A stretch of 64,000 nt of DNA from Pelomonas sp. Root1217 (GTDB taxonomy: Bacteria > Pseudomonadota > Gammaproteobacteria > Burkholderiales > Burkholderiaceae_C), in the NCBI RefSeq assembly GCF_001425705.1, contig NZ_LMDC01000001.1, positions 558,001-622,000 on the forward strand. Reading direction: 5' to 3'. Made by a program: the position numbers and the translations under genes. Shown here piece by piece: positions 15,755-31,290 of the stretch. The number at the start of each line of letters is the position of its first letter. The first letter of the stretch is position 1. Below the pieces are notes generated by a model that was given only the letters and a program-made list of their open reading frames with translations, was not told where the DNA came from and searched no databases.

Positions 15755-15920
15755 GTCGGTTTCAGATGGCGACCTGCCCCCGGCAGCGGCTGCATGTCCG
15801 GGGAGCGCAGTAGGTCTTCGCAGTCGAGACACCGGCCAGGGACGAGCCATGCCGCCCGTCCAGCGTTGGGACCCCGAACGACCCGCCGATTCCCGACGAC
15901 GAGCGGGCAAGGAGACAGAG

Positions 15921-17699
15921 GTGATTCTTGTTTTGCGTTGCTTGCGCCTGATGGGCGCTTGTTGGTTGCTGGCTGTTTCGGGTCTTGGCCTGCTTGGCAC
16001 CACACCCGCCCTGGCCCAGGACTACACCCAGGGCGTCGACGTCAGCGGCACGACCGCCACGATCTGGTTCAAGTCCAATGTGTCGACCGCCTGGGTCGAC
16101 GCCCACTACACCGTCAACAACGGCCCTCAGCAGAACATCCGCATGACGGCCGCCAACGGCCGCTATGAGCAAAAGGTCACCGTGGCCACCGGCAACGTGC
16201 TCGGCTACTTCTTCACCTACAACAACGGCACGCCGGCCTACGACACGCCCAGGTTCAGCTACACCGTCGGCTCGCCCCCTGTGGCGAGCGGCCCGGTCTG
16301 CTTCTACGCGGACATCAACTACACCGGCGACAGCTTCTGCGGGAGCGCCGATTCGAGCTGGATCGGTGCCGCCTGGAACGACCGCGTGTCGTCCGTGAAG
16401 GTGCAGGCCGGCTACCAGGCCACGCTGTTCAACGACGTCAGCTACGGCGGCGGCTCGCTGGTGCTGACGGCCAACGAGCCCAACCTCGTCAACCGCGGCT
16501 TCAACGACCTGACCTCGTCCTACCGCGTCGGCACCAGCACCAACACCGGTGCCTGGAACGGCCGCACGACGTTCAACATCGTCAACCAGACCGGCGGCCG
16601 CTGGCCCGACGACCAAGTCTACTGGGCCATCATCGGCAAGGACTGGGCCACCGGCAAGTTCGTGCGCGTGGATGCGGCCGGCAACTTCATCCCGATGTCC
16701 ACCGCCGACAACGGCGCGCTGACCAAGGGCGGCCAGACCTACACCAACTACTTCCACAAGCTCAGCAACACCCGCTCCATCACCATCCCGGCGCTGAACT
16801 CGGCCCGCGTGCTGATGTCGGTGGGCTCGCCGATGTACATCAAGGTCGTCGTCGATGGCAACGGCAACATCGGCTATGCCGGTGCCAACATCGAGAACCC
16901 GACCGATCCCAACATCGACGTCATCTTCGACTTCGGCGAGATGGCCATCATCCCGCTGGGCCAGCCGGATCAGGGCATCTTCATCAATACCACCCGCGTC
17001 GACCACTTCGGCTTCCCGCTGAAGCTGCGCGTGCAAGGCGGTGGCGGCTACGACCAGACCGTGGGCGAGGCGTTGACCGAGACGCGTGACCAGCTCTTCA
17101 GCAAGTTCATCGCCGAAGTGCCGGCGCCGTTCAAGCCTCTGGCCCAGGCACCGTACTCGCCGTACCGCATCATGGCCCCTGCCCATGGCACCTTCAAACC
17201 CGGCCAGGCCAACACCAACTACCTGCAGCCCTATATCGACGCCGTCTGGGCCCGCTACCGCAACGAGGACCTGGTCTTCACGCTGCAGAACCTGGGCACC
17301 TTCCGCGGTCGCGTCAGCGGCGATCGCTTCACCTTCACCGGCGGCTCGCCGGCCGGCACCTTCTACATCAACGGCAAGCCCGACACCGCCATGGTCCTGC
17401 TGGGCGCCGGCCTGCTGGCGGACGCGAGCGGCAACCCGACCAACACCGGCACGCAGCTGCAGCTCCAGGCCCAGATCTGCGCCGCGTTGAACCGCCACGT
17501 GATGGAGCAGCCGGCCAACTGGTACGTGCAGACGGCCCACTACCCGGTCGGCCAGCTCGGCAACTGGTACGCCAAGTTCTGGCACGACCACAGCATCAAC
17601 AAGAAGGCCTACGGCTTCGCGTACGACGACGTGGGCGACTTCAGCCCGTCGCTGCACACGACGGCGCCGACGACGGTCACTTACACGATCGGCTGGTAA
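15921..17699 (+). CDS. Secreted modular endo-beta-1,3-glucanase (GH64) with CBM56-like and beta/gamma-crystallin-like domains
   Basis: Extracellular enzyme predicted to cut beta-1,3-glucans such as curdlan or fungal wall glucan. The GTG start is supported by AAGGAGA 6 bases upstream and leaves a good signal peptide ending ALA at residue 32; an upstream ATG would add a charged 24-residue lead. Residues 34-115 resemble the beta-1,3-glucan-binding module CBM56. Residues 124-205 resemble a beta/gamma-crystallin domain (CFYADINYTGDSF, then ATLFNDVSYGGGSLVL). Residues 218-592 are the thaumatin-like GH64 region; acidic residues in FDFGEMAI and TRVDHFGFPL may include the catalytic pair. Two LacI-type operators lie upstream, so sugar-responsive control is likely. 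Domain names come from pattern recognition, not a profile search. Confidence 0.82.
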   Translation: MILVLRCLRLMGACWLLAVSGLGLLGTTPALAQDYTQGVDVSGTTATIWFKSNVSTAWVDAHYTVNNGPQQNIRMTAANGRYEQKVTVATGNVLGYFFTYNNGTPAYDTPRFSYTVGSPPVASGPVCFYADINYTGDSFCGSADSSWIGAAWNDRVSSVKVQAGYQATLFNDVSYGGGSLVLTANEPNLVNRGFNDLTSSYRVGTSTNTGAWNGRTTFNIVNQTGGRWPDDQVYWAIIGKDWATGKFVRVDAAGNFIPMSTADNGALTKGGQTYTNYFHKLSNTRSITIPALNSARVLMSVGSPMYIKVVVDGNGNIGYAGANIENPTDPNIDVIFDFGEMAIIPLGQPDQGIFINTTRVDHFGFPLKLRVQGGGGYDQTVGEALTETRDQLFSKFIAEVPAPFKPLAQAPYSPYRIMAPAHGTFKPGQANTNYLQPYIDAVWARYRNEDLVFTLQNLGTFRGRVSGDRFTFTGGSPAGTFYINGKPDTAMVLLGAGLLADASGNPTNTGTQLQLQAQICAALNRHVMEQPANWYVQTAHYPVGQLGNWYAKFWHDHSINKKAYGFAYDDVGDFSPSLHTTAPTTVTYTIGW

Positions 17700-17766: not shown

Positions 17767-18285
17767 TCAGGCCGTGCGGCGACGGGCGCCGCCTGCTCCG
17801 AGGAGGGCTACAGCGGCCAGCGCCAGGCTACCGGGTGTGGGCACGGAGAACAGTTCTCCTCTGAGATCACCTACGTTGGAGGCGCTGGTGCAACTGGGGA
17901 CCGAGCAAACGCCCCATCCGTAGCCATTTGCCAGATTGATGGGCGCCGTACCGCCCGCGTCGGTCAACGGGTTCGAAACCGTGATCCAAAGGGTTGTCTG
18001 GCCTGTGTAATCGGCGGCGGCCGTTTCGGTGAACAGGAAGTAGGTTCCACCGACGGTCGGGTAGAACTGGTTCGTCAGCGTGAAGGGCGAACCCGGAGAG
18101 CCGGTGGTAAGGAGGATGCTGATGTCCGAGACCAGGTCAAGGCTGGCGTCGTAGGTGAACCCGCCGGCGACGGCGCTGCCATCGGTCAGGCTCAGGCCGT
18201 CCACCGACCAGCGCACGGGTGCGGCATGGGCGGCCAGGCAGGTCGCGGCAAGCGCCATGGCTGCCAGCATCGAGCGGATATTCAT
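17767..18285 (-). CDS. PEP-CTERM-type exported protein (sorting-signal variant)
   Basis: A 172-residue exported protein with signal peptide MNIRSM..AAHA and a polar, Thr/Ser/Gly-rich body with two cysteines (GVCSVPSCTS). The C-terminus VPTPGSLALAAVALLGAGG followed by ARRRTA has the layout of a PEP-CTERM signal: short motif, membrane segment, Arg cluster. Here the motif reads PTP rather than PEP. Such proteins are processed by exosortase and linked to exopolysaccharide in Gram-negative bacteria. Start ATG has AAGGAGAG upstream. No exosortase gene is in the window, and the body function is unknown. Confidence 0.75.
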   Translation of the reverse strand: MNIRSMLAAMALAATCLAAHAAPVRWSVDGLSLTDGSAVAGGFTYDASLDLVSDISILLTTGSPGSPFTLTNQFYPTVGGTYFLFTETAAADYTGQTTLWITVSNPLTDAGGTAPINLANGYGWGVCSVPSCTSASNVGDLRGELFSVPTPGSLALAAVALLGAGGARRRTA

Positions 18286-18496
18286 GGGAACTCTCCTTCA
18301 CGGGTGGTGACCACGTTCGCCGGTACCGACTCCAGGGGACGCCCGGCTCTGCACAAGGTGACGCAGATTCCGTACCAGAGCGCCGCCTTCCTGGGGTGGC
18401 GGGCTCAACGCCGCGGGTCAGCAGGGCTGGCTGTAAAGAAGCCCGACACGATTTCGCGCCGTGCCCTTGGCGCAGCCGGAAGGGTCCGCTGGCGGC

Positions 18497-19147
18497 TCAG
18501 CGTCTTGCGTTGATCCGCCAGGCGGGCAGCGTCCACCCCGTCCACAGTGCCAGGCCGCGCAGCGCCACGGCGGTTGCCGCCGCTGCGCTGATGGTGGCCC
18601 ACTGCGGCCAGCCCAGCGTGACGGCGCTGACCAGCACCCAGCCGCCGACAAAGCTGCACAGGGCGTACGGTCGGTGGTCGTGGAAGGCCGCGGGGATTTC
18701 GTTGCAGACGATGTCGCGCAGCACGCCGCCGAAGACCGCGGTGATGACGCCCATCAGCACGGCGACGATGGCCGGCATGCCGGCGTCCAGCGCCACCAGC
18801 GTGCCGTTGGCCGTGAACAGGCCCAGGCCCAGCGCGTCGGGCCACTGGATGGCGCGTTCGGTCAGCGCCAGGTGACGGCGGCGCATCAGCAGCATCGCGG
18901 CCAGACACAGCCCCATCAGCGCCCACAGCCAGTCGGCATGCTCGACCCAGAAGAAGGGCCGGCGGTCCAGAAGCACATCGCGCAGCGTGCCGCCGCCGAA
19001 GGCCGACAGACCGGCGACCACGCACAGGCCGACGACGTCAAGCTGCTTGCGCGCGCCGGCCAGCAGGCCCGACAGCGCGAAGGCCAGGGTGGCGGTGATT
19101 TCCACCGCCGACTGCAGCGTGGAGAAATTGATGACGGGAGGCTTCAC
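18497..19147 (-). CDS. TRIC-type cation channel family protein (UPF0126)
   Basis: Inner-membrane protein of 216 residues with about seven hydrophobic segments and the internal repeat typical of this family: GLSAFGGGTLRDVLLDR in the first half and GVITAVFGGVLRDIVCNEIP in the second. Bacterial TRIC relatives conduct K+ or small cations. The start is a GTG 10 bases downstream of the stop of the last binding-protein gene, so it is probably the fourth gene of that operon. A 211-base gap with no gene follows before the PEP-CTERM gene. Confidence 0.85.
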   Translation of the reverse strand: MKPPVINFSTLQSAVEITATLAFALSGLLAGARKQLDVVGLCVVAGLSAFGGGTLRDVLLDRRPFFWVEHADWLWALMGLCLAAMLLMRRRHLALTERAIQWPDALGLGLFTANGTLVALDAGMPAIVAVLMGVITAVFGGVLRDIVCNEIPAAFHDHRPYALCSFVGGWVLVSAVTLGWPQWATISAAAATAVALRGLALWTGWTLPAWRINARR

Positions 19148-19157
19148 CCGCGCATCA

Positions 19158-20732
19158 TCACTTCAGCGTCGCCCACTTCGCCTGGGGTGCGTCGTTGGCG
19201 GAATGCGGGATCGTCAGGCCCGCCTTCATCGCCCAGGGCCGCACCTGGTGGTGGATGGGAATGAACAGGTACTCGTCGCGCGTGCGCTTGAGCGCTTCCT
19301 GCATCAGCGCCAGGCGCTTGGGCACGTCAGTCTCGACCTTCATCTGCTGCACCAGCGCATCGACCTTGGCGTCGCTGACCCTGGAGAAATTGCCCTTGCC
19401 GTCGGCGCCGCCGGTCTTGGTGTGGACGATGTCCTGCAGCGTGTATTGCGCATCGAAGGTCGTCACGCCCCAGCCGTACATGTACAGCGGCAGCTCGTAG
19501 CGCTGCATGGCGGCCGAGTGCTGGGTCATGGGCTGGGTCGACAGCCTGGCCTTGATGCCGACGCGGGTCCACATCGACACCACCGCCTGGCAGATCTCCT
19601 CGTCATTGACGTAGCGGTCATTGGGGCAGGCCAGTGGCACCTCGAAGCCGTCGGGGTAGCCGGCCTCGGCCAGCAGCTGCCTGGCACGCGCCACGTCGGG
19701 CTTTTGCACCGCGTCCAGTTCGGCCGAATGACCGTAGGCCACCGGCGCGACCATGATGGCCGCCGGCACCGACAAGCCACGCATCAGGCTGCGCTTGATG
19801 GCCTCGCGGTCGATCGCCAGCGACATCGCCTCGCGCACGCGGCGGTCCTTGAAGGGGTTCTTGCCCTTCACGTTGCTGCCCTTGATCTCGTCGCTGCCGA
19901 GGTCCAGCGCGAAGAAGATGGTGCGGTTCTCGGGCCCGTCGATGACCTTGAGGCGCGGATCGGCCTTGAGCTTGGCGACATCCTGCGGCGGCAGGTCGGT
20001 CAGCAGGTCCAGGTCGCCCGACAGCAGGGCAGCCACGCGTGTGGCATCGGACTTGATCGGCAGATAGGTCAGCTCGGTGATGTTGCCCTTGGGCTTGTCC
20101 CACCAGTCCTTGTTGGCCACCATGTTGATGCGCTGGTCCGGCTGCCAGGCCATGATCTTGAAGGGCCCCGTGCCCATGGCATTGCGCGAGGCATAGGTGT
20201 CCTCCTTGGCCTTGAAGTCCTGCGGGTTCTCGGAGCGGTTCTTCGTTGCCCAGGCCTTGCTGAGGATGCGCACATAGGTCAGGTTGCGCGTCAGCACGGG
20301 GTTGGGGCCTTCCAGCACGAAGTCGACCGTGAAGTCGTCGATCTTCTTCACCTCCTTGATGCCGGAGGCGTAGATGACCATGTTGCTGGCGGGATGCTTG
20401 ATGCGCTGCAGGCTGAAGAGCACGTCGTCGGCGGTGAACGGCGTGCCGTCATGGAATTTGACGCCGCGGCGCAGGTCGAAGCGCACCAGCGTCGGCGTCA
20501 CGAAGGTCCACTTCGCGGCCAGCGCCGGCTCGACGTCGAACTTCTCGGTGTACCGCGTCAGGCCCTCGTAGGCATAGCCGGTGATGGTCGAGGTGGCCGA
20601 GTGGTTTTGCGAATGCGGGTCCAGCGTCTGGATGTCGTTCTGGGCCGCCCAGCGCAGCGGGTTGCCCGTGGCAGCCAATGAAGTGACCAGCCAGGCGGCG
20701 GCCCAAAGCGTGGAAAGTTTCATGAGCTTCAT
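19158..20732 (-). CDS. ABC transporter substrate-binding protein, peptide/nickel family (third of three tandem paralogs)
   Basis: Periplasmic binding protein of the SBP_bac_5 (DppA/OppA) family, 524 residues. A signal peptide ends near LAATGN, followed by PLRWAAQNDIQTLDPHSQNH. The family signature LRRGVKFHDGTPFTADDVLFS is clear. The ATG overlaps the upstream paralog's TGA as ATGA, so translation is coupled. Two cysteines (in CPNDRYVNDEEICQ) are shared with its two neighbours and may form a disulfide. No permease or ATPase gene accompanies it here, so the ligand and partner transporter are unknown. Confidence 0.93.
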   Translation of the reverse strand: MKLMKLSTLWAAAWLVTSLAATGNPLRWAAQNDIQTLDPHSQNHSATSTITGYAYEGLTRYTEKFDVEPALAAKWTFVTPTLVRFDLRRGVKFHDGTPFTADDVLFSLQRIKHPASNMVIYASGIKEVKKIDDFTVDFVLEGPNPVLTRNLTYVRILSKAWATKNRSENPQDFKAKEDTYASRNAMGTGPFKIMAWQPDQRINMVANKDWWDKPKGNITELTYLPIKSDATRVAALLSGDLDLLTDLPPQDVAKLKADPRLKVIDGPENRTIFFALDLGSDEIKGSNVKGKNPFKDRRVREAMSLAIDREAIKRSLMRGLSVPAAIMVAPVAYGHSAELDAVQKPDVARARQLLAEAGYPDGFEVPLACPNDRYVNDEEICQAVVSMWTRVGIKARLSTQPMTQHSAAMQRYELPLYMYGWGVTTFDAQYTLQDIVHTKTGGADGKGNFSRVSDAKVDALVQQMKVETDVPKRLALMQEALKRTRDEYLFIPIHHQVRPWAMKAGLTIPHSANDAPQAKWATLK

Positions 20733-22303
20733 GGGAGGGTGGTGAAGCGGGCCTCGAAGGTGTCATTCGAGCGGTGCAGGGTCTGGACGCCGGGTTTCAT
20801 GGCCCAGGGCCGGATCTGATGATGCACCGGAATGAAGAAGGATTCGTCGCGCACGCGCAGCAGGGCCTCGCCGATCAGCGCATTGCGGGCCGCGGTGTCG
20901 GGCTCGAACTGGATGCGCTCGACGAGGCTGTCCAGCGTCGGGTCGGCGAGGCGATTGAAGTTCTGGCCGCCGTTGCCGCGGGTGTCGCGGCTGTGGCCCC
21001 AGCCCTGCAGGCCCTGGTGAGCGTCGTAGGTCGGCATCGCGATGCCGATCAGGTAGAAGGGCGATTCGTAGCGCTCCAGCGCCTGGATGTGCAGGCTCAT
21101 GGGCTGCGCGTTCAGCCGTGCGCGCACACCGATGCGTGCCCACATCGCCACTGCCGCCTGGCAAATCTGCTCGTCGTTGACATAGCGGTTGTTGGGGCAG
21201 CGCAGCGGCACCTCGAAGCCCTGCGGATAGCCGGCCTCGGCCAGCAGCTTGCGCGCCTTGTCGGGATCGGCCTTCACGGGTGTGTCCAGCGCGGCTTCGT
21301 ACCCGTTGACGCCCGGCGGCACCATCAGCGCCGCGGGCACGGACAGGCCGCGCATGATGCTGCGCTTGATGGCCTCGCGGTCCAGCGCCAGGTTCAGCGC
21401 GTCGCGCACCCGCTTGTCCTTGAAGGGGTTTTTGCCTTTGACGCTGGAATCGCGCAGTTCCTCGCTGCCTTGGTCCATCGCGAAGAACACTGTGCGCACT
21501 TCGGCGCCCTCCATCAGCTTGAGTCGGTTGTCCGTCTTGAGCCGCTGATAGTCCTGCGGCGGCACATCGGTGACGATGTCGACGTCACCCGACAGCAGCG
21601 CCGCCACGCGCGTGGGCGCCGACTTGATCGGCAGATAGGTCAGCTCGGTGATGTTGCCCTTGTTGCTGTCCCACCAGTCCTTGTTGATGACCATCTGCAC
21701 GGCCTGGTCGGGCTGCCCGCTGACGAGCTTGTACGGCCCGGTGCCGTTGGCGTTGCGCGAGGCGTGGTTCTCTTCCTTGGCCTTGAAGTCCTCGACGTGG
21801 CTGGCATGGTTGCGCAGCGCCCAGGTGCGGCTGAGGATGGCGAAGCTGACGAGATTCTGCAGCAGCAGCGGCGCGGGCGCCTCCAGCATCACGTCGATGC
21901 TGTAGTCGTTGATCTTGCGGATCTCGCGGATGCCCGACACATAGGCCTGCATCGCGCCCTGCGGCTCGCGGATGCGCGCGAAACTGAACACCACGTCGTC
22001 GGCCGTGAAGGGGCTGCCGTCGTGGAACTTCACGCCACGGCGCAGCTCGAAGCGCACCTGGGTGGGCGACAGATACGTCCAGCGCGTCGCCAGCGCCGGC
22101 TCAGGCTGGTAGTTCTCGCCGCGCCGCGTCAGGCCCTCGTAGACCTGCGCGGCGATGGTCAGCGAGGTGGTGTGGTTCTGCGAATGCGGGTCCAGCGTCA
22201 GGATGTCGTTCTGCGCGGCCCAGCGCAGCGGGGCCGCGCTGGCGGACAGGGCGGCAAACAGCCCGCAGGCCAGGGCCATGAGAACGCCATGTCGCGCCCT
22301 CAC
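20729..22303 (-). CDS. ABC transporter substrate-binding protein, peptide/nickel family (second of three tandem paralogs)
   Basis: SBP_bac_5 family, 524 residues when begun at the GTG that overlaps the preceding TGA as GTGA. That start gives a proper signal peptide (MRARHGVLMALACGLF, ending SASA); a start at the internal ATG (22279) would remove the charged n-region. The mature protein begins APLRWAAQNDILTLDPHSQNH, nearly the same as both neighbours. A longer open frame upstream is only a shadow of the first paralog. The repeated intact frames argue that all three copies are functional. Confidence 0.92.
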   Translation of the reverse strand: MRARHGVLMALACGLFAALSASAAPLRWAAQNDILTLDPHSQNHTTSLTIAAQVYEGLTRRGENYQPEPALATRWTYLSPTQVRFELRRGVKFHDGSPFTADDVVFSFARIREPQGAMQAYVSGIREIRKINDYSIDVMLEAPAPLLLQNLVSFAILSRTWALRNHASHVEDFKAKEENHASRNANGTGPYKLVSGQPDQAVQMVINKDWWDSNKGNITELTYLPIKSAPTRVAALLSGDVDIVTDVPPQDYQRLKTDNRLKLMEGAEVRTVFFAMDQGSEELRDSSVKGKNPFKDKRVRDALNLALDREAIKRSIMRGLSVPAALMVPPGVNGYEAALDTPVKADPDKARKLLAEAGYPQGFEVPLRCPNNRYVNDEQICQAAVAMWARIGVRARLNAQPMSLHIQALERYESPFYLIGIAMPTYDAHQGLQGWGHSRDTRGNGGQNFNRLADPTLDSLVERIQFEPDTAARNALIGEALLRVRDESFFIPVHHQIRPWAMKPGVQTLHRSNDTFEARFTTLP

Positions 22304-23868
22304 TTGATGGTGGTGTAGCGAGCCTCGAAATAGTCGTTCGAGCGGTGGATGGTCTCGACGCTCGGCTTCATCGCCCAGGGCCGGATCTGGTGGTGGATGG
22401 GCACGAAGAGGTATTCGTCGCGGATGCGCAGCAGGGCTTCCTTGATGAGGGCGTTGCGCTTGGGCACGTCGGGCTCGAACTTGATCTTCTGGATCAGGCC
22501 GTCGAGCGTCGCGTCGCTGACCTTGCCGAAATTGAAGTTGCCGTCCGCGCCGTTGGTGCGCGTGTGGCCCCAGGCCTGCATGCCGTAGAGGGCGTCGTAC
22601 GTGGAGACGCCCCAGCCCAGCATGTAGAACGGCGACTCGCCGCGCTGGAAGGTCTGGCTGTGGGTGGAGAAGGGCTGCGCGATCAGGCGCACCTTGACGC
22701 CGATCTTGGCCCACATCGACACCGCCGCCTGGCAGACCTGCTCATCGTTGACATAGCGGTTGTTGGGGCAGTGCAGCGGCACCTCGAAGCCCTGCGGGTA
22801 ACCGGCCTCGGCGAGCAGCTTGCGCGCCTTGTCGAGGTCGGGCTTCAGCGGCGTGTCCAAGGCCGCGTCATAGCCATTCACACCCGGCGCGATCATCAGC
22901 GCTGCCGGCACCGACAGGCCACGCATGATGCTGCGCTTGATGGCCTCGCGGTCCAGGGCCAGGTTCATGGCCTCGCGCACTTTTCTGTCCTTGAAGGGGT
23001 TCTTGCCCTTCACGCTGGACTCGCGCAGTTCCTCGCTGCCCTCGTCCATGACGAAGAAGACGGTGCGGATCTCCGAGCCTTCCAGCAGCCTGACCTTGCC
23101 TTCTTCCTTGAGCTTGAAGAAGTCCTGCGGCGGCAGGTCGGTGACGATGTCGACGTCGCCCGACAGCAGGGCCGCCACGCGCGTCGGCGGAGACTTGATC
23201 GGCAGATAGCTCAGCTCGGTGACATTGCCCGGGTTCTTGTCCCACCAGTCCTTGTTGGCCACCATCTTGACGGCCTGGTCGGGCTGCCAGCTCACCAGCT
23301 TGTAGGGCCCGGTGCCATTGGCATTGCGGCTCGCGAAGTTCTCTTCCTTGGCCTTGTAGTCCTGCGTGTTGGTCGTGTTGTTCTTGGTCGACCAGACCTT
23401 GCTCATGATGGGGAAGCTGATGATGTTCTGCAGCAGCATCGGCGTGGGTGCCTCGAGGATGAAATCGACGGTGTGGTCGTCGATCTTCTTGACCTCCTTG
23501 ATGCCCGACACATAGGTCTGCTTGGTGCCTTGCGGCTGGGTGATGCGGCCGAAGCTGAAGACGACGTCGTCGGCCGTGAACGGCGAGCCGTCATGGAACT
23601 TGACGCCCTTGCGCAGCTCGAAGCGCACCTGGGTCTGGGAGAGGTAGGTCCACTTGGTCGCCAGCGAGGGCTCGGGCCGGTACTCGCGGCTCAACCGCGT
23701 CAAGCCCTCGTAGATGTGGGTGCCGATGGCGTTGGAGGTGTTGTGGTCCTGCGAGTGCGGGTCCAGCGTCAGGATGTCGTTCTGCGCGGCCCAGCGCAGT
23801 GGGGCGGCAGTGGCCACTCCCAGCGTCAGTGCGGCCAGCAGGGGCAGGAGTCGGAGCAGAGATTTCAT
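22300..23868 (-). CDS. ABC transporter substrate-binding protein, peptide/nickel family (first of three tandem paralogs)
   Basis: First gene of the operon, 522 residues. The start MKSLLRLLPLLAALTLG has AAGGAAAG upstream and a signal peptide ending ATA. It has LRKGVKFHDGSPFTADDVVFSF and GLSVPAALMIAPGVNGYDA, shared with the second paralog. It looks closest to the second copy by eye. The promoter must lie in the 68 bases before it or further upstream. The ligand is not deducible; the family binds oligopeptides, heme, nickel or glutathione. Confidence 0.93.
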   Translation of the reverse strand: MKSLLRLLPLLAALTLGVATAAPLRWAAQNDILTLDPHSQDHNTSNAIGTHIYEGLTRLSREYRPEPSLATKWTYLSQTQVRFELRKGVKFHDGSPFTADDVVFSFGRITQPQGTKQTYVSGIKEVKKIDDHTVDFILEAPTPMLLQNIISFPIMSKVWSTKNNTTNTQDYKAKEENFASRNANGTGPYKLVSWQPDQAVKMVANKDWWDKNPGNVTELSYLPIKSPPTRVAALLSGDVDIVTDLPPQDFFKLKEEGKVRLLEGSEIRTVFFVMDEGSEELRESSVKGKNPFKDRKVREAMNLALDREAIKRSIMRGLSVPAALMIAPGVNGYDAALDTPLKPDLDKARKLLAEAGYPQGFEVPLHCPNNRYVNDEQVCQAAVSMWAKIGVKVRLIAQPFSTHSQTFQRGESPFYMLGWGVSTYDALYGMQAWGHTRTNGADGNFNFGKVSDATLDGLIQKIKFEPDVPKRNALIKEALLRIRDEYLFVPIHHQIRPWAMKPSVETIHRSNDYFEARYTTIK

Positions 23869-23936: not shown

Positions 23937-24251
23937 CTACGGTTTTCCCTCGGGTTCTAGTGAGCAATCGCAACCAACGCCGGCGGCGATCCAGCGCTTC
24001 ACCAGCCAGCCGCCGAACCTCCCGACGAGGCCGCTCGGTTGCGCCGCTAGTGCGCCGCACACATAGCGTGCGCCGTCCCAGCGCAGTGCGACGCATGCAC
24101 CTTTGAGGCGCCGGCTCAGCACGACGCCCAGCGGGCAGGGCTCAGCCAGGCAGCAGACGCCGCAGCCGTTGCAAGCCTGGCCGAACGCGGGCTTGGGCGG
24201 CGCGTCGGGGTGGATTTGAATGATCCGTGTCTGGCCCATGGGTTGAATCAT
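23937..24251 (-). CDS. Small cysteine-rich protein with CxxCxxCC cluster
   Basis: A 104-residue protein with nine cysteines: Cys27, 30, 33, 34 and 39 (in ACNGCGVCCLAEPCPLG), 53, 65, 94 and 96. The CxxCxxCC cluster resembles the metal-chelating YkgJ-type families and may bind iron-sulfur or zinc. There is no signal peptide. Its ATG overlaps the MocR gene's TGA as ATGA, so it is translated together with that regulator; an internal Met at residue 5 is an alternative start. No defined function is known to me. Confidence 0.72.
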   Translation of the reverse strand: MIQPMGQTRIIQIHPDAPPKPAFGQACNGCGVCCLAEPCPLGVVLSRRLKGACVALRWDGARYVCGALAAQPSGLVGRFGGWLVKRWIAAGVGCDCSLEPEGKP

Positions 24252-25696
24252 GGGCCAGAAGATGGCCCGGACCGCAGCGCCTGCCGCAATCGGCTCGCCA
24301 CCTCGCCCGCCTGTTCGGTCCTGACATTGGTGAAGCCGATCAACAGGCCCTGTCCGGCCTCGTGCTGGACGGCATGGGCAGACAGCGCGGACGGCGCCAG
24401 GCCCTGAGCGCGGGCGCGCAAGACCAAGCCGGTGTCCGGCTCGTGTCCGGGGAAGCGGGCCAGCAGCGTGAGGCCGCCCTCGGGAGCCGCCAGCGCGATG
24501 CCGTTGCCGAATTCAGCTTGCAGGGCGCGGGTCAGCGCCATGCTGCGTTCGGCATAGCGAAGCCGCATGCGGCGCAAATGCCGGGCGTAGTGGCCGCCGG
24601 CCATGAAGGCCGCCAGAGCAGCCTGTTCCTGCTGGGCATGGCCGCGGTGGGACAGTTCGCAGGCAGCGGTCGTGGCCTCGACCCAGGCGGCGGGTGCGAC
24701 GAGATAGCCCAGCCTCAGCCCGGGGAACAAGGTCTTGCTGAAGCTGCCGGCGTAGAACACCCGGTCGTGCCGGTCGATGCTTTTTAGCGCCGCCGGCTTG
24801 CGGCCGACGTAGTGGAATTCGCTGTCGTAGTCATCTTCCAGCACCCAGGCGTCGGCGGCCTGAGCCCAGTCGAGCAGCGCCTGGCGGCGTTGGGATGACA
24901 GCGCCACGCCCAGCGGGCTCTGGTGGCCAGGCGTGACGACGGCGAGCCGGGCGGCCGGGTGATGTTGCCGCGCATAGGCCACGTCCAGGCCGGCCGCATC
25001 GACCGGGATGAAGGCCAACTGCAGCTGCGCCGCTTCCAGCGCGCGCCGCGCGAAGCGGTAGCCGGGATCCTCGAACCAGACTTCCGCGCCCGACGGTGCC
25101 ACCAGGCCCACCACCAGTTGCTGCGCGGCCTGGTAGCCGGCCGTGACGAAGACCTGGGCGGGGTCGCAGGCAATACCGCGCGACACCAGCAGGTAGGCCG
25201 CAATGGCGGCGCGCAGCTCCGGCAGGCCGCGCGGGTCGGGGTAGCAGAAGCGCTGGGCGTCCAGACGCCGTGCCGCGCTGGCCGTCAGGCTGGCCCAGAG
25301 CGTGCGTGGGAACAAGTCCAGCGCCGGCAGGCCGCCGCGAAAGGGCCAGAGGTAGTCGTCGGGCAAGGTGAAGGCCGCTGCCCGCGCGATGGCAGGCGTC
25401 GCACCCTGCATCAGGCTGCCCGGCTTCAGGTCGGGCGCCACCACGGTGCCGGCTGCACCGCGCCCCAGGATGCAACCCTCACCGGCCAGCCGCCCATAAG
25501 CCGCGTCGACGGTGCCGCGGGCCACATTGAGCTGGGCGGCCAGGCTGCGCGTGGACGGCAGGCGCTCGCCTGGCGCCAGCCGCCCGTCTGCGATGGCCTC
25601 GCGGATGCGCTGGTAGACCTGGTCCTGCAACGGTTGGGCCGACGCGGTTTCCAGGCGCAGCGCATCCAGCAGGGAGGGAGTTGGCGGTGCGCTCAT
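24248..25696 (-). CDS. MocR/PdxR-family transcriptional regulator (GntR HTH fused to aminotransferase-like domain)
   Basis: A 482-residue chimeric regulator. Residues 1-85 form the GntR-type winged helix (QVYQRIREAIADGRLAPGERLPSTRSLA). The rest is a fold-type I aminotransferase domain with EDDYDSEF and the PLP-lysine motif YAGSFSKTLFPGLRLGYL. Such proteins use PLP or PLP-amino-acid adducts as signals. The start at MSAPPTPSLL is chosen because longer frames would run into the divergent gene. Its divergent neighbour begins 64 bases away and is the likely target. Confidence 0.9.
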   Translation of the reverse strand: MSAPPTPSLLDALRLETASAQPLQDQVYQRIREAIADGRLAPGERLPSTRSLAAQLNVARGTVDAAYGRLAGEGCILGRGAAGTVVAPDLKPGSLMQGATPAIARAAAFTLPDDYLWPFRGGLPALDLFPRTLWASLTASAARRLDAQRFCYPDPRGLPELRAAIAAYLLVSRGIACDPAQVFVTAGYQAAQQLVVGLVAPSGAEVWFEDPGYRFARRALEAAQLQLAFIPVDAAGLDVAYARQHHPAARLAVVTPGHQSPLGVALSSQRRQALLDWAQAADAWVLEDDYDSEFHYVGRKPAALKSIDRHDRVFYAGSFSKTLFPGLRLGYLVAPAAWVEATTAACELSHRGHAQQEQAALAAFMAGGHYARHLRRMRLRYAERSMALTRALQAEFGNGIALAAPEGGLTLLARFPGHEPDTGLVLRARAQGLAPSALSAHAVQHEAGQGLLIGFTNVRTEQAGEVASRLRQALRSGPSSGP

Positions 25697-25760
25697 GGCC
25701 CAGTCAATTCGCGCGGATTTGGCTCTGTTGGATCGGGCCATTCTCCGGGAGAGTCTGGGC

Positions 25761-26804
25761 ATGGACACGCAGCTTCGATCTTCCGCCGCCGACATGGGCG
25801 CCAGGGCACCGCTCTCCGCGGGCCGGCAGGCCCTCGCGCTCGCGCCGGCCCTCGCGGCGATGAGCTACCCGTTCTGGTTGCGGGCCTTCCATGCCGTCGG
25901 CCCGCAATGGCCTCTCGCGGCGCTGCCGCTGCTGGCTGCCTTCGCGATGCCGCTGGTCGCCGCGCTGCTGTGGTTGCGCGCGGCCCGCATGGCGCCCGGC
26001 TCGGTCTTCGAACTCCGAGCACGTCGCCTGGCGCTGCTGGGTGTCGCGGCGCCGCCGCTGTTCGTGTTCTGCGCCTTCCTGTTGGGCGTGCTGGGCCGCC
26101 CGATCTCCGAGCCGCTGGCTTGGGTGGCCGCATGGTTGGCCGCTGGCCTGTGGGCGTGGGCGGCCCCCCGCAGGGCCGAGCCCGTGACCGCCCCGCCGGC
26201 GGACATGACCGCGCGCGCTGCCCATGGCGTGGTGGCGGCGATGGTGCTGGCCTTCATCGGCTTTCACCTCGTCAACCACCTGTTCGGGCTGCTGGGGCCG
26301 CAGGCGCATGCGGCCGTCATGAAGGCTGGGCGCGGCGTCTACCGCATGCCCGCGGTCGAAGCCATGCTGGTGGCGCTGCTGTTGCTGCAGCTCTGCCTTG
26401 GCGCGTGGCTGGCCTGGCGCTGGAGTCGGTTGCGCATGGATGTCTACCGCGCCGTGCAAGTGATGACAGGTGTCTATCTCGGCTTCTTCCTGCTCACGCA
26501 CATGAACTCGGCCCTGGTGTCGGCGCGCGCCTTGCGAGGCATCGAGACCGACTGGGCCTGGGCCTCGGGCGCGCCGCAAGGCCTGCTGCTGGACGCCTGG
26601 AACATCCGCCTGCTGCCGCACTATGCGCTGGGCGTGTTCTGCGTGCTCGCCCATCTGTGCTGCGGCCTGCGCAGCGTGCTGCTGGCGCATGGCTGGCGGG
26701 CGGCGAGCGTCGACCGCGGCTGGATGGCGGGTTTGATTGCCGCGGCCGCGGTGTCGATGCTCGTCGTGGCCGGCTTGTGCGGACTGCGGTTGCCCCGCGC
26801 TTGA
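25761..26804 (+). CDS. Polytopic membrane protein of unknown function
   Basis: A 347-residue inner-membrane protein with about eight to nine hydrophobic segments. The second half carries histidines inside membrane segments (AFIGFHLVNHLFG, FFLLTHMNSALV, PHYALGVFCVLAHLCCG), a layout reminiscent of heme-ligating cytochrome b or succinate dehydrogenase anchor proteins, but this is only resemblance. The start ATG has GGAGAG upstream at good spacing; an earlier in-frame ATG would overlap the MocR start. It shares a 64-base divergent promoter region with the MocR gene, which suggests PLP-linked control. Confidence 0.7.
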   Translation: MDTQLRSSAADMGARAPLSAGRQALALAPALAAMSYPFWLRAFHAVGPQWPLAALPLLAAFAMPLVAALLWLRAARMAPGSVFELRARRLALLGVAAPPLFVFCAFLLGVLGRPISEPLAWVAAWLAAGLWAWAAPRRAEPVTAPPADMTARAAHGVVAAMVLAFIGFHLVNHLFGLLGPQAHAAVMKAGRGVYRMPAVEAMLVALLLLQLCLGAWLAWRWSRLRMDVYRAVQVMTGVYLGFFLLTHMNSALVSARALRGIETDWAWASGAPQGLLLDAWNIRLLPHYALGVFCVLAHLCCGLRSVLLAHGWRAASVDRGWMAGLIAAAAVSMLVVAGLCGLRLPRA

Positions 26805-26878
26805 GTCCACGCTGCGAGACGCTAGGCTCCACGCAGGCGCTGTCCCTTCCACCACACCGCACGACAGGAGAGTTCAAG

Positions 26879-27520
26879 ATGTCCAAGGTCAGAGTCGCCG
26901 CCTTCAGCATTTCCATCGACGGTTTCGCGGCAGGGCCGCGCCAGAGCCTGGAGGCGCCACTGGGCGCGGGCGGCGAGCAGCTGCACGAGTGGATGTTCCC
27001 GACGCGCACCTTCAAGCAGATGCTCGGCAGCGAAGGCGGCAGCACCGGCGTCGATGATCGCTTCGCGGTGCGCAGCTTCGAAGGTGTCGGCGCCTGGATC
27101 CTGGGCCGCAACATGTTCGGTCCCGTGCGCGGCCCCTGGCCCGACGAGACCTGGAAGGGCTGGTGGGGCGTCAATCCGCCCTACCACGTGCCCGTGTTCG
27201 TGCTAACCCACCACGCCCGGCCGCCCCTGCAGATGGAAGGCGGCACGACCTTCCATTTCGTGACGGACGGAATCGAAGCCGCGCTGCGGCAGGCGAAGCA
27301 CGCCGCCGCGGGCAAGGACGTGCGCATCGGTGGCGGTGCTCAGACGATCCGTCAGTACCTGCAGGCCGGCCTCATCGACGAGATGCACCTGGCCCTCTCG
27401 CCGGCGCTGCTGGGCAGCGGCGAGTCGCTGCTGGGCGGCCTGGACATGCCGGCCCTTGGCTGGCGCGTCACCGAGCGCGAAAGCTCAGGGCAGGCAATGC
27501 ATGTAGTGATGGCGAGGTGA
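26879..27520 (+). CDS. Dihydrofolate reductase family protein (RibD C-terminal-like)
   Basis: A 213-residue cytoplasmic protein of the bacterial DHFR/RibD-C superfamily, many members of which are uncharacterised NADPH-dependent reductases. It starts MSKVRVAAFSISIDGFAAGP, with AGGAG 8 bases upstream. It contains the nucleotide-binding region GAWILGRNMFGPVRGPW and RIGGGAQTIRQYLQAGLIDEMHLALSPALLGSGE, characteristic of the group. Its last 53 bases overlap the convergent HxlR-type gene. The actual substrate is unknown. Confidence 0.87.
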   Translation: MSKVRVAAFSISIDGFAAGPRQSLEAPLGAGGEQLHEWMFPTRTFKQMLGSEGGSTGVDDRFAVRSFEGVGAWILGRNMFGPVRGPWPDETWKGWWGVNPPYHVPVFVLTHHARPPLQMEGGTTFHFVTDGIEAALRQAKHAAAGKDVRIGGGAQTIRQYLQAGLIDEMHLALSPALLGSGESLLGGLDMPALGWRVTERESSGQAMHVVMAR

Positions 27521-27932
27521 CACCACAGATCGCGCGAGCGTCGACGCCGACGTCCGGCGGGGCGATTGCACAAGCGGCTTGATGGGCCGCGCCCCAGCGA
27601 CGGATTTCCTCGGCCACCGGCAGCACCGACAGCCCGCGCGGCGTGAGCGCGTATTGCACGACGGCCGGCACGGGCCCCGTGCGCTCGCGGCTCACCAGGC
27701 CGTCGGCCTGCAGCTCGCGTAACTGCTCCGCCAGCACCTTGGCCGACACGTCCGGCAGGCTGCGCCGCAGCGCTGCGAAGTGTAGTGGACCATCGGCCAG
27801 CCGGTACACCACAAACAACTTCCAGCGCCCGCCGATGGCCGCCAGCGCCGCCGTCAGCGCGCAGCCGGGGATGGCGTTGCCACGCGCTGAACGAGGGCGG
27901 TTACCTGCAGGTGCCTTCTTGGCAGTGGACAT
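27468..27932 (-). CDS. HxlR-family winged-helix transcriptional regulator
   Basis: A 154-residue DNA-binding protein. The HxlR pattern is clear: [34 protein letters not shown], then SAKVLAEQLRELQADGLVSRE and YALTPRGLSVLPV. The C-terminus extends past the usual end and overlaps the 3' end of the convergent DHFR-like gene by 53 bases. The start is MSTAKKAPAG; longer frames are shadows of the divergent gene. It shares a 48-base divergent region with the next gene, its likely target. Confidence 0.88.
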   Translation of the reverse strand: MSTAKKAPAGNRPRSARGNAIPGCALTAALAAIGGRWKLFVVYRLADGPLHFAALRRSLPDVSAKVLAEQLRELQADGLVSRERTGPVPAVVQYALTPRGLSVLPVAEEIRRWGAAHQAACAIAPPDVGVDARAICGVTSPSLHALPALSFRAR

Positions 27933-27980
27933 GGTGCTGCATAGAGTGAACCGGGTCAGTCTAGTCACCCATCCGAGTTC

Positions 27981-28562
27981 ATGCCTTCCCAACACACCCG
28001 CCGCACTGCCGCTTCCCTGTTCGTTGCCGCCGGCGCCAGTGCCATCGCCGCACCGGCAGCCAGCGCGCCGCCGCTGCCCGCAACGCCGGCGGGCCTGCCG
28101 CAGGACTTTGATTTCGAGCACGGCAACTGGCGCACGTCGCTGCGCCGCCGCCTGCGGCCCCTGAGCGGTTCCGACACCTGGGCCGAGTACACGGGCACAA
28201 CCCTCGTGCACCCTCTGCTAAGCGGCCGCGCGAATCTCGTCGAGCTGGATGTCTCGGGCCCCGAGGGTCGCATCCAGGGTCTGTCGCTGCGGCTCTTCGA
28301 GGTGCAGAGGCAGCGGTGGACGCTCAACTTCTCCAACGCAGCATCGGGCACGCTCGCCGCGGCAATGGTGGGCGGTTTCGGCGGCAGCCCACGTGGCCTG
28401 TTCTACAGCGCCGAGGACTTCAACGGCCGGCCCATCCTGGTGCGTTTCGTCATCGAGTCTCTCAACGCCGACCGCTGTCGCTTCGAGCAGGCATTTTCAG
28501 CGGATGGGGGCGTGACATGGGAGGTCAACTGGGTTGCGGTGGATACGAGGAGGTCATACTGA
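27981..28562 (+). CDS. Exported conserved hypothetical protein (DUF1579-like)
   Basis: A 193-residue protein with a probable Tat- or Sec-type signal (MPSQHTRRTAASLFVAAGAS, cleavage near AASA). The mature part begins with FDFEHGNWRTSLRRRL, similar to the opening (FDFWIGEW-like) of secreted DUF1579-type beta proteins, and ends with FEQAFSADGGVTWEVNWV. Biochemical function is unknown. It is divergent from the HxlR gene and followed 4 bases later by an exonuclease gene, suggesting co-transcription. Confidence 0.7.
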   Translation: MPSQHTRRTAASLFVAAGASAIAAPAASAPPLPATPAGLPQDFDFEHGNWRTSLRRRLRPLSGSDTWAEYTGTTLVHPLLSGRANLVELDVSGPEGRIQGLSLRLFEVQRQRWTLNFSNAASGTLAAAMVGGFGGSPRGLFYSAEDFNGRPILVRFVIESLNADRCRFEQAFSADGGVTWEVNWVAVDTRRSY

Positions 28563-28566
28563 AGCG

Positions 28567-29181
28567 ATGGAGAGACCCACGAGCGAACAGATTGCGGCGT
28601 TGCCGCCTTACCCCGCGCTGCCGCTCGACCGTATCCATGTGCTTCGCGATGCGGACCAATGCGAGTTCGCTGAAGCAGAACTGCGCTTGGCCGGGCAGGT
28701 CGGCTTCGACACCGAGAGCAAGCCCATGTTCGTCGCTGGCGGTGAGCAGACGGGACCGCACATCGTGCAGTTCGCGACCGCGGGGCATGCCTTCATCGTG
28801 CATACGGAAGCGCCGGAGACTGCAGGCTTCCTGCGCGCCATCCTTGAGTCTGAGGTCATCGTCAAGGTGGGGTTCGGCATCGTGTCCGACCGCGTGCCCC
28901 TGCTCAGGAAGCTCGGCGTGCAGCTCAGCGGTGGGGTCGACGTTTCGCACATGGTGCGGCGACTGGGTTTCCAGCAGGCCGTCGGCCTCAGGGCCGCCGT
29001 TGCCATCGTGCTGGGCCAGCGCATGCCCAAGTCCAAGAAAGTCACCACCTCCAACTGGGCCACCCGCAAGCTCAGCCCCCAGCAGCTGCAGTACGCGGCC
29101 AACGACGCGCACGCGTCGCTGCTGGTGTATCAGGCGCTCCAGGCGATGCCAATGGAGCTTGCGAGAGCTTCATCTCCATGA
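28567..29181 (+). CDS. DEDDy 3'-5' exonuclease domain protein (RNase D-like)
   Basis: A 204-residue stand-alone nuclease domain. The active-site residues are visible: Asp48 and Glu50 (GFDTESKP), Asp108 (GIVSDRVPLL), Tyr176 and Asp180 (YAANDAHASL). It lacks the HRDC domains of true RNase D, so it is the short form. DNA or RNA preference is not predictable from this. It starts 4 bases after the preceding stop. Confidence 0.85.
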   Translation: MERPTSEQIAALPPYPALPLDRIHVLRDADQCEFAEAELRLAGQVGFDTESKPMFVAGGEQTGPHIVQFATAGHAFIVHTEAPETAGFLRAILESEVIVKVGFGIVSDRVPLLRKLGVQLSGGVDVSHMVRRLGFQQAVGLRAAVAIVLGQRMPKSKKVTTSNWATRKLSPQQLQYAANDAHASLLVYQALQAMPMELARASSP

Positions 29182-29232
29182 GTGGCCCTGCCAACGGCCA
29201 CCCTCCAGCCGTCCGAGTTCTAAACTCAAGAG

Positions 29233-30045
29233 ATGAAGCCGGTCCTGACTTGTCTGGTGGCGACCCTGTTCGCCAGTGCCGGACTGCAGGCCCATGAAAG
29301 TCCCTGCGGGCCGTATCAAGTGGCCTTTTACGAAACGGGCTTGCTGTATTTCAAGAATGCCGCAGGCGACTACGTCGGCATCGACCGCGACGTCGTCGAG
29401 GAAGTCAGCAGGCGCACGGGCTGCTCCTTGGTGCGAGTCATGGAGTCCCGCGTGCGAATCTGGACGGCGTTGGCCGGGGGTGCGCTTGACATGACAGTCT
29501 CGGGCATAGAAACGCCTGAGCGGCAGCGGTTTGCGCATTTCGTTCCTTATGTCCTGAACAATCGCAACTACCTGATCGTGCGTAACGAGCTGGCTGCCAC
29601 GACGAAGACCATGGACGAATTCCGGGCGCGAAAGCCCCTGCGTCTGGGGGTAGTCAAGGGTTTTGTCCATGGCGCAACGCTGGACGCCTGGATCGAAGCG
29701 CTCCGTCGCGAAGGCCGCATCGATGAAGTGGCAGATCTGGAAGTTCTCGCCAGAGTCTTTGCGGTAGGGCGCGTTGATGCCTTCCTCAGCCAACCGGTGG
29801 TCTGGGCCCCACTACTCAAGCGCAACCAGCTGGACGGAAAGGTTCAAATCCTCGACTTCGCGCCGCAGGACAACGCGGTCCTGGGGCTCGTGCTGTCGCG
29901 CCAGCGGGTTGCGGCCGTCGACGTCGACAAGATGCGCAACGCGATCGAGATGATGCGCACCGATGGCACGCTTGAGACGATTTTTGCGCGCTATGTTGAC
30001 CGGCCGACAGCCCGAGCGCTTGCAGCGCGACCCGGCGGAAAGTAG
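29233..30045 (+). CDS. Periplasmic amino-acid-type substrate-binding protein (SBP family 3)
   Basis: A 270-residue exported protein with signal peptide ending LQA at residue 20. The body shows the family 3 pattern: FKNAAGDYVGIDRDVVEEVSRR, then ALAGGALDMTVSGIETPERQRFAHFVPYV, and a C-terminal MRTDGTLETIFARYV. There is no adjacent permease, so it may be an orphan binding protein or a sensor. It converges on the oxygenase gene over a terminator. Confidence 0.85.
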   Translation: MKPVLTCLVATLFASAGLQAHESPCGPYQVAFYETGLLYFKNAAGDYVGIDRDVVEEVSRRTGCSLVRVMESRVRIWTALAGGALDMTVSGIETPERQRFAHFVPYVLNNRNYLIVRNELAATTKTMDEFRARKPLRLGVVKGFVHGATLDAWIEALRREGRIDEVADLEVLARVFAVGRVDAFLSQPVVWAPLLKRNQLDGKVQILDFAPQDNAVLGLVLSRQRVAAVDVDKMRNAIEMMRTDGTLETIFARYVDRPTARALAARPGGK

Positions 30046-30101
30046 CGGCAGGCAAGCGCCCGTCACACACGCTCGGTTTCGGAGCGCGGCAATGAATTGG
30101 A

Positions 30102-30124
30102 AAAGGGCGCCCGCGGCGCCCTTT
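30102..30124. terminator. Bidirectional terminator between binding protein and oxygenase genes
   Basis: AAAGGGCGCC pairs perfectly with GGCGCCCTTT across a 3-base loop. The two genes converge on it. Confidence 0.75.
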
Positions 30125-30143
30125 CGACTTCGAAGACAGGCCT

Positions 30144-30986
30144 TCAGGTCTTCACGCCCAGCTCGCGCAGCCGCTCGTTCAGATAGCTGTCGGCTGTATA
30201 GCGATCGCTCAGCACGACGTTGTCGCGCGGATGCAGGAACAGCGGCAGCGACACGCGGCTCTTCTTCGCGCCTTCGCCGGTCGGGTTCACCACGCGGTGC
30301 TGGGTCGATGGGTAATAGCCCTCGGAGGCTTCCTGCAGCATGTCGCCGATGTTGATGGTCAGCGTGCCGAAGTCGCAGGGCACGTCGTGCCAGGCGTTGT
30401 CGGTGCCCAGCACCTGCAGGCCCGGCTCGTTGGCGGCGGGCAGGATGGTCAGCAGATTGATGTCGCCATGCGCTGCGGCGCGGATGGAGCCCACCGGCTC
30501 TTCGCCCGTCAACGGCGGGTAGCGCAGCACGCGCAGCAGGGTCTTGCTGCTGCCCTGGATCATGTTCGACAGTGGCTCGCGGTACTTGGCCGCGATCTCT
30601 GGCGGCGTGTAACGCTCCACCCAGCCCAGCAGTTCCTCCGCCAGCGCGTTGGCTTCGCGGTAGTAGGTGAGGGCATCTTCCTTCAGCTGCGGTGGGATGC
30701 GGCCCCACGGGTAGACGTGGAAGTACTCCTTGATGTCCTTCTGCTTGGAGCCCTTCGCAGTTTCGGAAATCTCCGTCGAGAAATAACCATCCTGCGTCTC
30801 CTTCGAAAACGCGAAACCGTGCTTGGCCTCGCTGTTGAAGAAGGCCAGCCAGTCGGCGTAGATCTTCTCGACCAGGGTTTGGCGGATCGGGTGGTTGGTC
30901 AGCACGCCGAAGCCGGTTTCGTGCAGGGAGCGGGTGAACTTTTCGGCCGCATCAGCGGCGCGGTAGTCGACGACCTGGACTTGCAT
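30144..30986 (-). CDS. 2-oxoglutarate/Fe(II) oxygenase, isopenicillin-N-synthase family
   Basis: A 280-residue cytoplasmic oxygenase. The iron ligands are His173 and Asp175 (AAHGDINLL) and His230 (TQHRVVNP), with Arg244 and Ser246 (SRVSLPLF) as the 2-oxoglutarate carboxylate site. The start MQVQVVDYRA is chosen because a longer frame reaches into the sucA promoter region and adds a non-conserved lead. Members hydroxylate or desaturate small molecules; the substrate here is unknown. It is divergent from the 2-oxoglutarate dehydrogenase operon, so both consume the same metabolite, though a link is inference. Confidence 0.88.
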   Translation of the reverse strand: MQVQVVDYRAADAAEKFTRSLHETGFGVLTNHPIRQTLVEKIYADWLAFFNSEAKHGFAFSKETQDGYFSTEISETAKGSKQKDIKEYFHVYPWGRIPPQLKEDALTYYREANALAEELLGWVERYTPPEIAAKYREPLSNMIQGSSKTLLRVLRYPPLTGEEPVGSIRAAAHGDINLLTILPAANEPGLQVLGTDNAWHDVPCDFGTLTINIGDMLQEASEGYYPSTQHRVVNPTGEGAKKSRVSLPLFLHPRDNVVLSDRYTADSYLNERLRELGVKT

Positions 30987-31290
30987 GGGGAATCCTCGTT
31001 GTCCCTTGGCGCAGCCATTCAATCGCGGGGCTGTCGCGGGCGCCAAGTTTACGAGTTAGTCAACTTTTGCGAACCTCAATCGGTGAACTTTGTCGCATCC
31101 CACAGGCCTTCTCGGGCAAACCCGGAGTGCTAGAGTCCGCCCCTGATACTTTTATTCCTTCCCGTCCCTTTTGCAGTTGCGCCTGGCAACAGCAGAGGTG
31201 GGTCGCAATCCGCCAACCGGTCGAGCCGTGTCGCGGAAGGTTCTTCAACCAGCCAACTCCCTGGAAACCGGGGCATGAGGTGAGCGAAAG
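30987..31290. promoter_or_regulatory. Divergent intergenic region between oxygenase and sucA
   Basis: 304 bases with no credible gene. The middle holds the AT-richer stretch GATACTTTTATTCC, where a sucA promoter could lie, but no clear -35/-10 pair can be given. The sucA leader after it is about 130 bases. I see no operator palindrome. Confidence 0.4.

Follow-up and report, generated by a model that had tools for sequence, protein, structure and literature searches.

The DNA analysed here, referred to as the window, is a 64,000-nucleotide stretch (C1:558001-622000) of the 6.6 Mb genome of Pelomonas sp. Root1217. It carries three tandem genes for family-5 solute-binding proteins (SBPs), SBP1 to SBP3, followed by a gene for a TRIC/UPF0126 membrane protein. 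Our results suggest that the trio encodes dispersed binding proteins of an SBP-less OppBCDF/DppBCDF-type importer, whose operon lies about 0.9 Mb away in the same genome, at C1:1473-1477 kb; we put the probability of this assignment at roughly 0.7. The main evidence that the trio would belong to that importer is the co-occurrence of permease and SBP family among genomes, their physical linkage in other genomes, and the grouping of the linked SBPs with the trio. SBPs without a neighbouring importer often stay unassigned, and cross-genome comparison here provides a specific and testable partner.

The trio and the TRIC gene occupy the minus strand of the window, and all three SBPs are full-length. 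The features of the run are listed below, with ratios of nonsynonymous to synonymous substitution (dN/dS) taken against the closest related locus, L010 (Pelomonas sp. Root1237, SBP1 99% identical):

22300-23868, minus strand: SBP1, family-5 solute-binding protein, 522 residues; PF00496 305.9 bits, dN/dS 0.05
20729-22303, minus strand: SBP2, family-5 solute-binding protein, 524 residues; PF00496 277.8 bits, dN/dS 0.15, placed by trees
19158-20732, minus strand: SBP3, family-5 solute-binding protein, 524 residues; PF00496 300.5 bits, dN/dS 0.08
18497-19147, minus strand: TRIC/UPF0126 membrane protein, 216 residues; two PF03458 half-repeats, dN/dS 0.16
22300-22303, minus strand: GTGA start/stop overlap of SBP2 and SBP1, read from the sequence
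20729-20732, minus strand: ATGA start/stop overlap of SBP3 and SBP2, read from the sequence
23937-24251, minus strand: small cysteine-cluster protein, 104 residues, absent from the earlier note on this DNA; first gene of the run, 68 bases upstream of SBP1, dN/dS 0.33
18444-18465, minus strand: terminator-like stem-loop after TRIC, from a consensus scan only

Against a PF00496 (SBP_bac_5) cut-off of 32.4 bits the trio scores 277.8-305.9 bits, which places it within the family. The layout that an earlier note on this DNA had described, with three tandem full-length SBPs joined by GTGA and ATGA overlaps and the TRIC gene 10 bases further on (spacer at 19148-19157), is confirmed; the spacing between SBP3 and TRIC is not conserved, being about 150 bases in L010. 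The scan that returned the stem-loop gave nine sites of this kind for the region, the expectation from shuffled sequence being 4.0, and chance matches do occur.

An importer operon without a binding protein

Genome-wide searches returned 12 SBP_bac_5 matches, five OppB-type permeases (PF19300) and three OppC_N matches. No permease was found near the trio by the PF19300 and OppC_N searches, which permeases without these domains would escape, PF00528 not having been searched genome-wide; the nearest match lies about 250 kb away. A local permease is ruled out by the lack of any PF19300 or OppC_N match inside the window, in agreement with the earlier note, which had seen none by the SBPs. Seven SBPs have no permease match nearby, namely the trio and those at C1:289k, C28:470k, C12:790k and C1:707k.

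The operon at C1:1473-1477 kb (L009) reads porin-porin-DppB-DppC-DppD-DppF-frataxin/CyaY. No SBP was detected beside its permease genes by hidden Markov model (HMM), either in this region or in those of 20 of 20 relatives (18-19 kb each; 11.4 kb for L105, whose region ends just upstream of DppB); in the same run the HMM recovered the SBPs at four control loci, of which L001 and L004 had served to build it. One genome holds, in this regard, both an SBP-less permease operon and permease-less SBPs of the matching family, as expected of a shared importer. An ortholog of the DppC of this operon was present in all 30 relatives tested, at 75-98% identity, these relatives being the genomes of 30 of the 55 related loci that a single scan of genome contigs yielded, some of them cut at contig ends; the 20 relatives with regions read for SBPs are among the 30.

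Within an order-wide sample of 90 genomes, drawn evenly, our own included, and queried with DppC and SBP1, a DppC ortholog (at least 62% identity) occurs in eight genomes and the SBP family (E value of 1e-111 or better) in nine, which are the same eight plus G039. SBP and permease genes are physically linked in five of these eight, in the following orders, where M20 stands for an amidohydrolase gene:

G052 and G099: SBP-SBP-DppB-DppC-DppD-DppF
G079: SBP-DppB-M20-SBP-DppC-DppD-DppF
G113: DppB-M20-SBP-DppC-DppD-DppF
G105: SBP-DppC-DppD-DppF

The eight SBPs linked in this way fall with the trio into one 42-row group of the tree, set apart from three DppA-type SBPs of our own genome at 100/100. 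More distant pairs, with DppC at 47-52% and SBP at 31-35% identity, adjoin by coordinates in at least seven further genomes (e.g., G042, G083 and G090), and for such pairs neighbourhood is the usual layout. Together, these findings support the proposal of the earlier note that the set feeds a transporter encoded elsewhere, since an SBP-less permease operon is present, its ortholog occurs together with the SBP family, and in five other genomes they are physically linked; the orphan DppBCDF-type permease that the note had thought worth looking for is the one at C1:1473-1477 kb. The assignment would also reveal an importer whose receptors lie wholly apart from it in one bacterial group.

Several points weigh against this assignment. 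The thresholds were picked after the score gap had been seen, and the co-occurrence counts ignore the relatedness of the 90 genomes. SBPs and permease are unlinked in three of the eight genomes (our own, G068 and G089), G039 carries the SBP family with no permease ortholog passing the threshold, and a 19 kb stretch of G105 has no DppB. Identity between the linked SBPs and SBP1 is just 41-49%, and the DppA-type branches of the tree are long, for which the tool gave a warning of possible false joining. In addition, our genome has another two orphan SBPs from this family (C1:289k and C28:470k) that could be the main partners of the importer, and two DppA-type SBPs without an adjoining permease match (C12:790k and C1:707k) also need one.

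Alternatively, the trio could serve a different importer of this genome, such as the canonical one for dipeptides at C23:430 kb. The C23 operon has an adjoining DppA-type SBP and a DppB that keeps the GER motif discussed below, and in Pseudomonas aeruginosa several SBPs are documented to share one DppBCDF (PMC4206461). The trio, however, groups apart from the DppA-type SBPs at 100/100 and is without the DppA aspartate, and where family members are linked to a permease in other genomes, it is the ortholog of the one in our SBP-less operon, which makes this route unlikely. A further view holds that SBP1-3 are periplasmic sensors or scavengers without any importer, for instance presenting ligands to a chemoreceptor, as some binding proteins are known to do. 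Their operon indeed lacks a permease, and 6 of the 55 loci (L038:16255-17832, and also L045, L049, L053, L057 and L059) have a full-length match to a methyl-accepting chemotaxis gene on the opposite strand, about 3-6 kb past the SBPs; a weaker match occurs in L037, some 0.1 kb past them, and a partial one in L027. Yet no chemoreceptor-like match appears in the remaining 47 loci, the window's clade among them, and relatives of the family are encoded within importer operons; the sensing alternative of the earlier note, which draws slight support from those eight loci and none from our own clade, is in our judgement quite unlikely. Other signalling genes were looked for by eye only, in the neighbour clusters of the related loci.

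We consider it very unlikely that local duplication merely left redundant copies without separate roles. The number of full-length SBPs does vary among the 55 loci (26 loci have a single one and 27 have two, L010 has three and one truncated locus has none), but every copy in the window shows low dN/dS, SBP1 and SBP3 persist as separate lineages with 71 fixed differing positions between them (18 SBP1 rows, 11 SBP3 rows), and a copy-specific segment lies at the presumed ligand cleft.

If the trio does serve the importer at C1:1473-1477 kb, each of SBP1-3, whose hydrophobic N-termini resemble signal peptides, would be exported to the periplasm and there capture a small ligand, presumably a peptide or a peptide-like compound. 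The three would then dock at and deliver their ligands to this importer, encoded behind two porin genes. Several receptors with differing clefts would give one importer a broader uptake range, and the TRIC-family protein may handle an amino acid, glycine, connected with the uptake of the trio.

Candidate ligands

According to PMC12136057, Arg383 of E. coli DppA holds the carboxyl end of the dipeptide and Asp436 its amino end; the partners of these two DppA residues are Glu41 and Arg42 in the scoop of DppB. In mature numbering, Asp436 is Asp408 and Arg383 is Arg355. At the Asp436 position SBP1, SBP2 and SBP3 carry S, P and T, respectively, and the residue is S, P, A, T, G or N, never D, in 104 of 104 family rows; the three DppA-type SBPs of our genome have E, D and D. 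Arg371 is present in 102 of the 104 rows, and its correspondence to DppA Arg383 is aligner-dependent, phmmer pairing the two and MAFFT setting Arg371 opposite T, T and Y of the own DppA-type SBPs. Against the NCBIfam DppA equivalog the trio scores 124.3, 108 and 129.7 bits, below the cut-off of 1005 bits, and our own DppA-type SBPs likewise stay under it (463-544 bits). Because the family has other residues in place of the amine-clamping aspartate of DppA, it is not assured that the trio binds ordinary dipeptides; of the peptide-binding role given in the earlier note, membership of SBP_bac_5 stands and the peptide ligand is the part that is not assured.

The scoop site of DppB reads Gln-Asp in the SBP-less operon and Glu-Arg (GER) in the DppB at C23. 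We take Glu41-Arg42 of the E. coli DppB sequence to fall at this aligned GER site. The SBPs and the permease would then be a pair without either side of the dipeptide amine clamp, as if by matching losses, and our comparison puts a name to such a pair. The Gln-Asp scoop is not specific, however, because it is also present in another OppB-type permease of our genome (L006), a further point against the assignment.

Between DppB and DppC, an M20 amidohydrolase gene is present in 11 of the 28 permease loci searched (L106-L112, L184, L185, L187 with two copies, and L189), and all six M20 proteins scanned, from five loci, score above the TIGR01891 cut-off. The M20 amidohydrolase class includes N-acyl amino acid and hippurate hydrolases. 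Our own permease operon is without an M20 gene; two M20 homologs (about 50% identity) sit elsewhere in the genome, with no SBP among the genes listed around them. Since the amine clamp and the scoop arginine are lost and M20 genes lie inside these permease loci, N-blocked amino acids or acyl-peptides are a reasonable guess at the ligands, no more. As a whole, the proposal that the trio and the distant importer would take up such compounds rather than free dipeptides, with the TRIC-family protein moving the released glycine, seems doubtful.

The array, the TRIC gene and their surroundings

SBP1 shares 69% identity with SBP2 and 62% with SBP3. Trees resolve SBP1 and SBP3 as two separate old lineages, with SBP2 falling in the SBP1 clade and occurring solely in this genome and L010, which are also the only ones with three copies among the loci compared. 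These identities and trees, on which the earlier note would have had the copies compared, uphold its local amplification only as an old duplication, given the age of the SBP1 and SBP3 lineages and the confinement of SBP2 to two genomes. Premature stops, which the note had contemplated for two copies, are found in none; a reading of the copies as pseudogenes is rejected because of this and of the low dN/dS, and all three copies look to be under selective constraint.

Between SBP1 and SBP2 we counted 54 fixed differing positions (56 with two edge gaps), with two SBP2 rows. The segment at the Asp436 site is specific to each copy, being GWGVSTYDALY in SBP1, GIAMPTYDAHQ in SBP2 and GWGVTTFDAQY in SBP3. 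The presumed ligand cleft would thus hold copy-specific segments, and different ligands per copy are plausible. An AlphaFold2 model, obtained for SBP1 only, is of moderate confidence (mean predicted local distance difference test, pLDDT, 74.2; predicted template modelling score, pTM, 0.69); its top ten PDB matches are titled as family-5 SBPs, at query template modelling scores of 0.68-0.78. The best sequence and fold matches are 5u4o, E. coli YliB (1uqw) and the H. parasuis glutathione-binding protein (3m8u), at 22-25% identity in the fold search. In the related loci, the named ones of which belong mostly to Roseateles, Pelomonas, Paucibacter or Mitsuaria, a four-base overlap is found at 13 of 29 SBP-SBP junctions; a lipoprotein-like gene of 186 residues separates SBP1 from SBP3 at L023:4407-4967.

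The TRIC protein scores 133.5 bits against PF03458 (now 'Gly_transporter' or 'Glycine transporter'), with two half matches of 81.9 and 66.3 bits, has 5wuf and 5h36 as PDB relatives and is encoded by the only PF03458 gene found in the genome. TRIC stands behind the SBPs in 16 of the 55 loci, with a helicase gene intervening in six of the 16; the SBP-TRIC link is real but clade-limited. Of the order of three SBPs and TRIC that the earlier note had proposed to trace in related genomes, this link is conserved to that extent and the third copy is shared with L010 alone. As a steady part of the SBP system TRIC is ruled out, being near SBPs in just those 16 loci. The intervening gene, UvrD-like, lies between the last SBP and TRIC at L011:13194-15140 and also in L015, L016, L017, L021 and L024, and ends about 8-21 bases ahead of TRIC. 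A search of 30 relatives gave a TRIC gene in 26, within the array in 11 of them (a single TRIC gene each) and elsewhere in 15; the remaining four have none. Eleven of the 15 are paralogs at 32-40% identity, nine of them beside an htpG-like gene (one Pfam-checked); two closer ones, in L118 (58%) and L125 (70%), lie away from SBPs, and those in L126 and L129 were not called by the gene caller.

UPF0126 genes are described as important for glycine use in 11 bacteria in a review (PMC12173739), and TRIC figures as a cation channel in a structure paper (PMC5477506). Given peptide-like uptake, glycine handling would fit the TRIC-family protein better than a cation channel. The operon described here thereby brings together a member of a family with two proposed functions and receptors whose ligands may resemble amino acids.

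The cysteine-cluster protein shows the pattern CNGCGVCC...PCPLG...GCDC (CxxCxxCC), and a Pfam search gave no family match for it. Its gene lies upstream of the array in 50 of the 55 loci, with eight cysteines invariant in 50 of 50, and is perhaps cotranscribed with the array as a neighbour not specific to the system. As a dedicated partner it is ruled out, since 11 of the 90 genomes of the order sample have the gene and two of these 11 have the SBP family at the threshold, G032 and G082 giving weaker SBP matches. A structure model (mean pLDDT 51.6) was too weak and left unused. Elsewhere, such genes occupy varied contexts, once, by our reading of the sequence, directly ahead of an OppB-like permease (L207:7310-7603).

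In most loci the array is flanked on one side by a 2-oxoglutarate dehydrogenase cluster with a 2-oxoglutarate (2OG)-oxygenase gene and on the other by a second cluster, which encodes electron-transfer flavoproteins, an acyl-CoA dehydrogenase and a flavin-type enzyme. Of the 55 loci, 50 had the oxygenase called, 48 a sucA-like gene and 41 the flavin-type enzyme. These names are readings of the sequences, the Pfam check covering the oxygenase of the window only. The gene caller mis-called some high-GC antisense frames, and gene orders that bear weight were checked by tblastn or HMM. In the window, the interval between the cysteine-cluster and 2OG-oxygenase genes (24248-31046) contains a MocR-like regulator together with several plus-strand genes; in many relatives the two genes directly adjoin. 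Near TRIC, the window encodes a predicted beta-1,3-glucanase (15849-17699, plus strand) with GH64, CBM56 and crystallin/inhibitor-I36-like domains, whose homolog cluster is present in 9 of the 55 loci, and a small, probably secreted protein (17767-18285, minus strand) with a weak NCBIfam match, below cut-off, to the PEP-CTERM protein PepA.

Comparison with known systems

The system proposed here resembles that of P. aeruginosa, in which DppA1-A5 share one DppBCDF, in having several paralogous SBPs, one DppBCDF and a porin gene near (PMC4206461). As described there, DppA5 alone is encoded away from the rest, four of the five SBP genes being near the permease; in the present genome, by contrast, no gene of the trio is near the permease, the SBP array occupies a separate locus, and its members form a group distinct from the DppA-type proteins of this genome. 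With E. coli DppABCDF, as presented in PMC12136057, it would share an SBP_bac_5 protein, two permeases and two oligo_HPY ATPases, and it differs in the replaced Asp436, the Gln-Asp scoop of DppB and scores of the trio far below the DppA cut-off. The two PF03458 repeats are those of the TRIC/UPF0126 family (PMC5477506, PMC12173739), whose channel or glycine roles are predicted for our protein from the literature only. Literature searches gave no precedent for this SBP-TRIC operon among the results listed. The arrangement would thus be a variation on the known layout of many SBPs and one importer, with receptors and importer fully separated and with a different SBP group.

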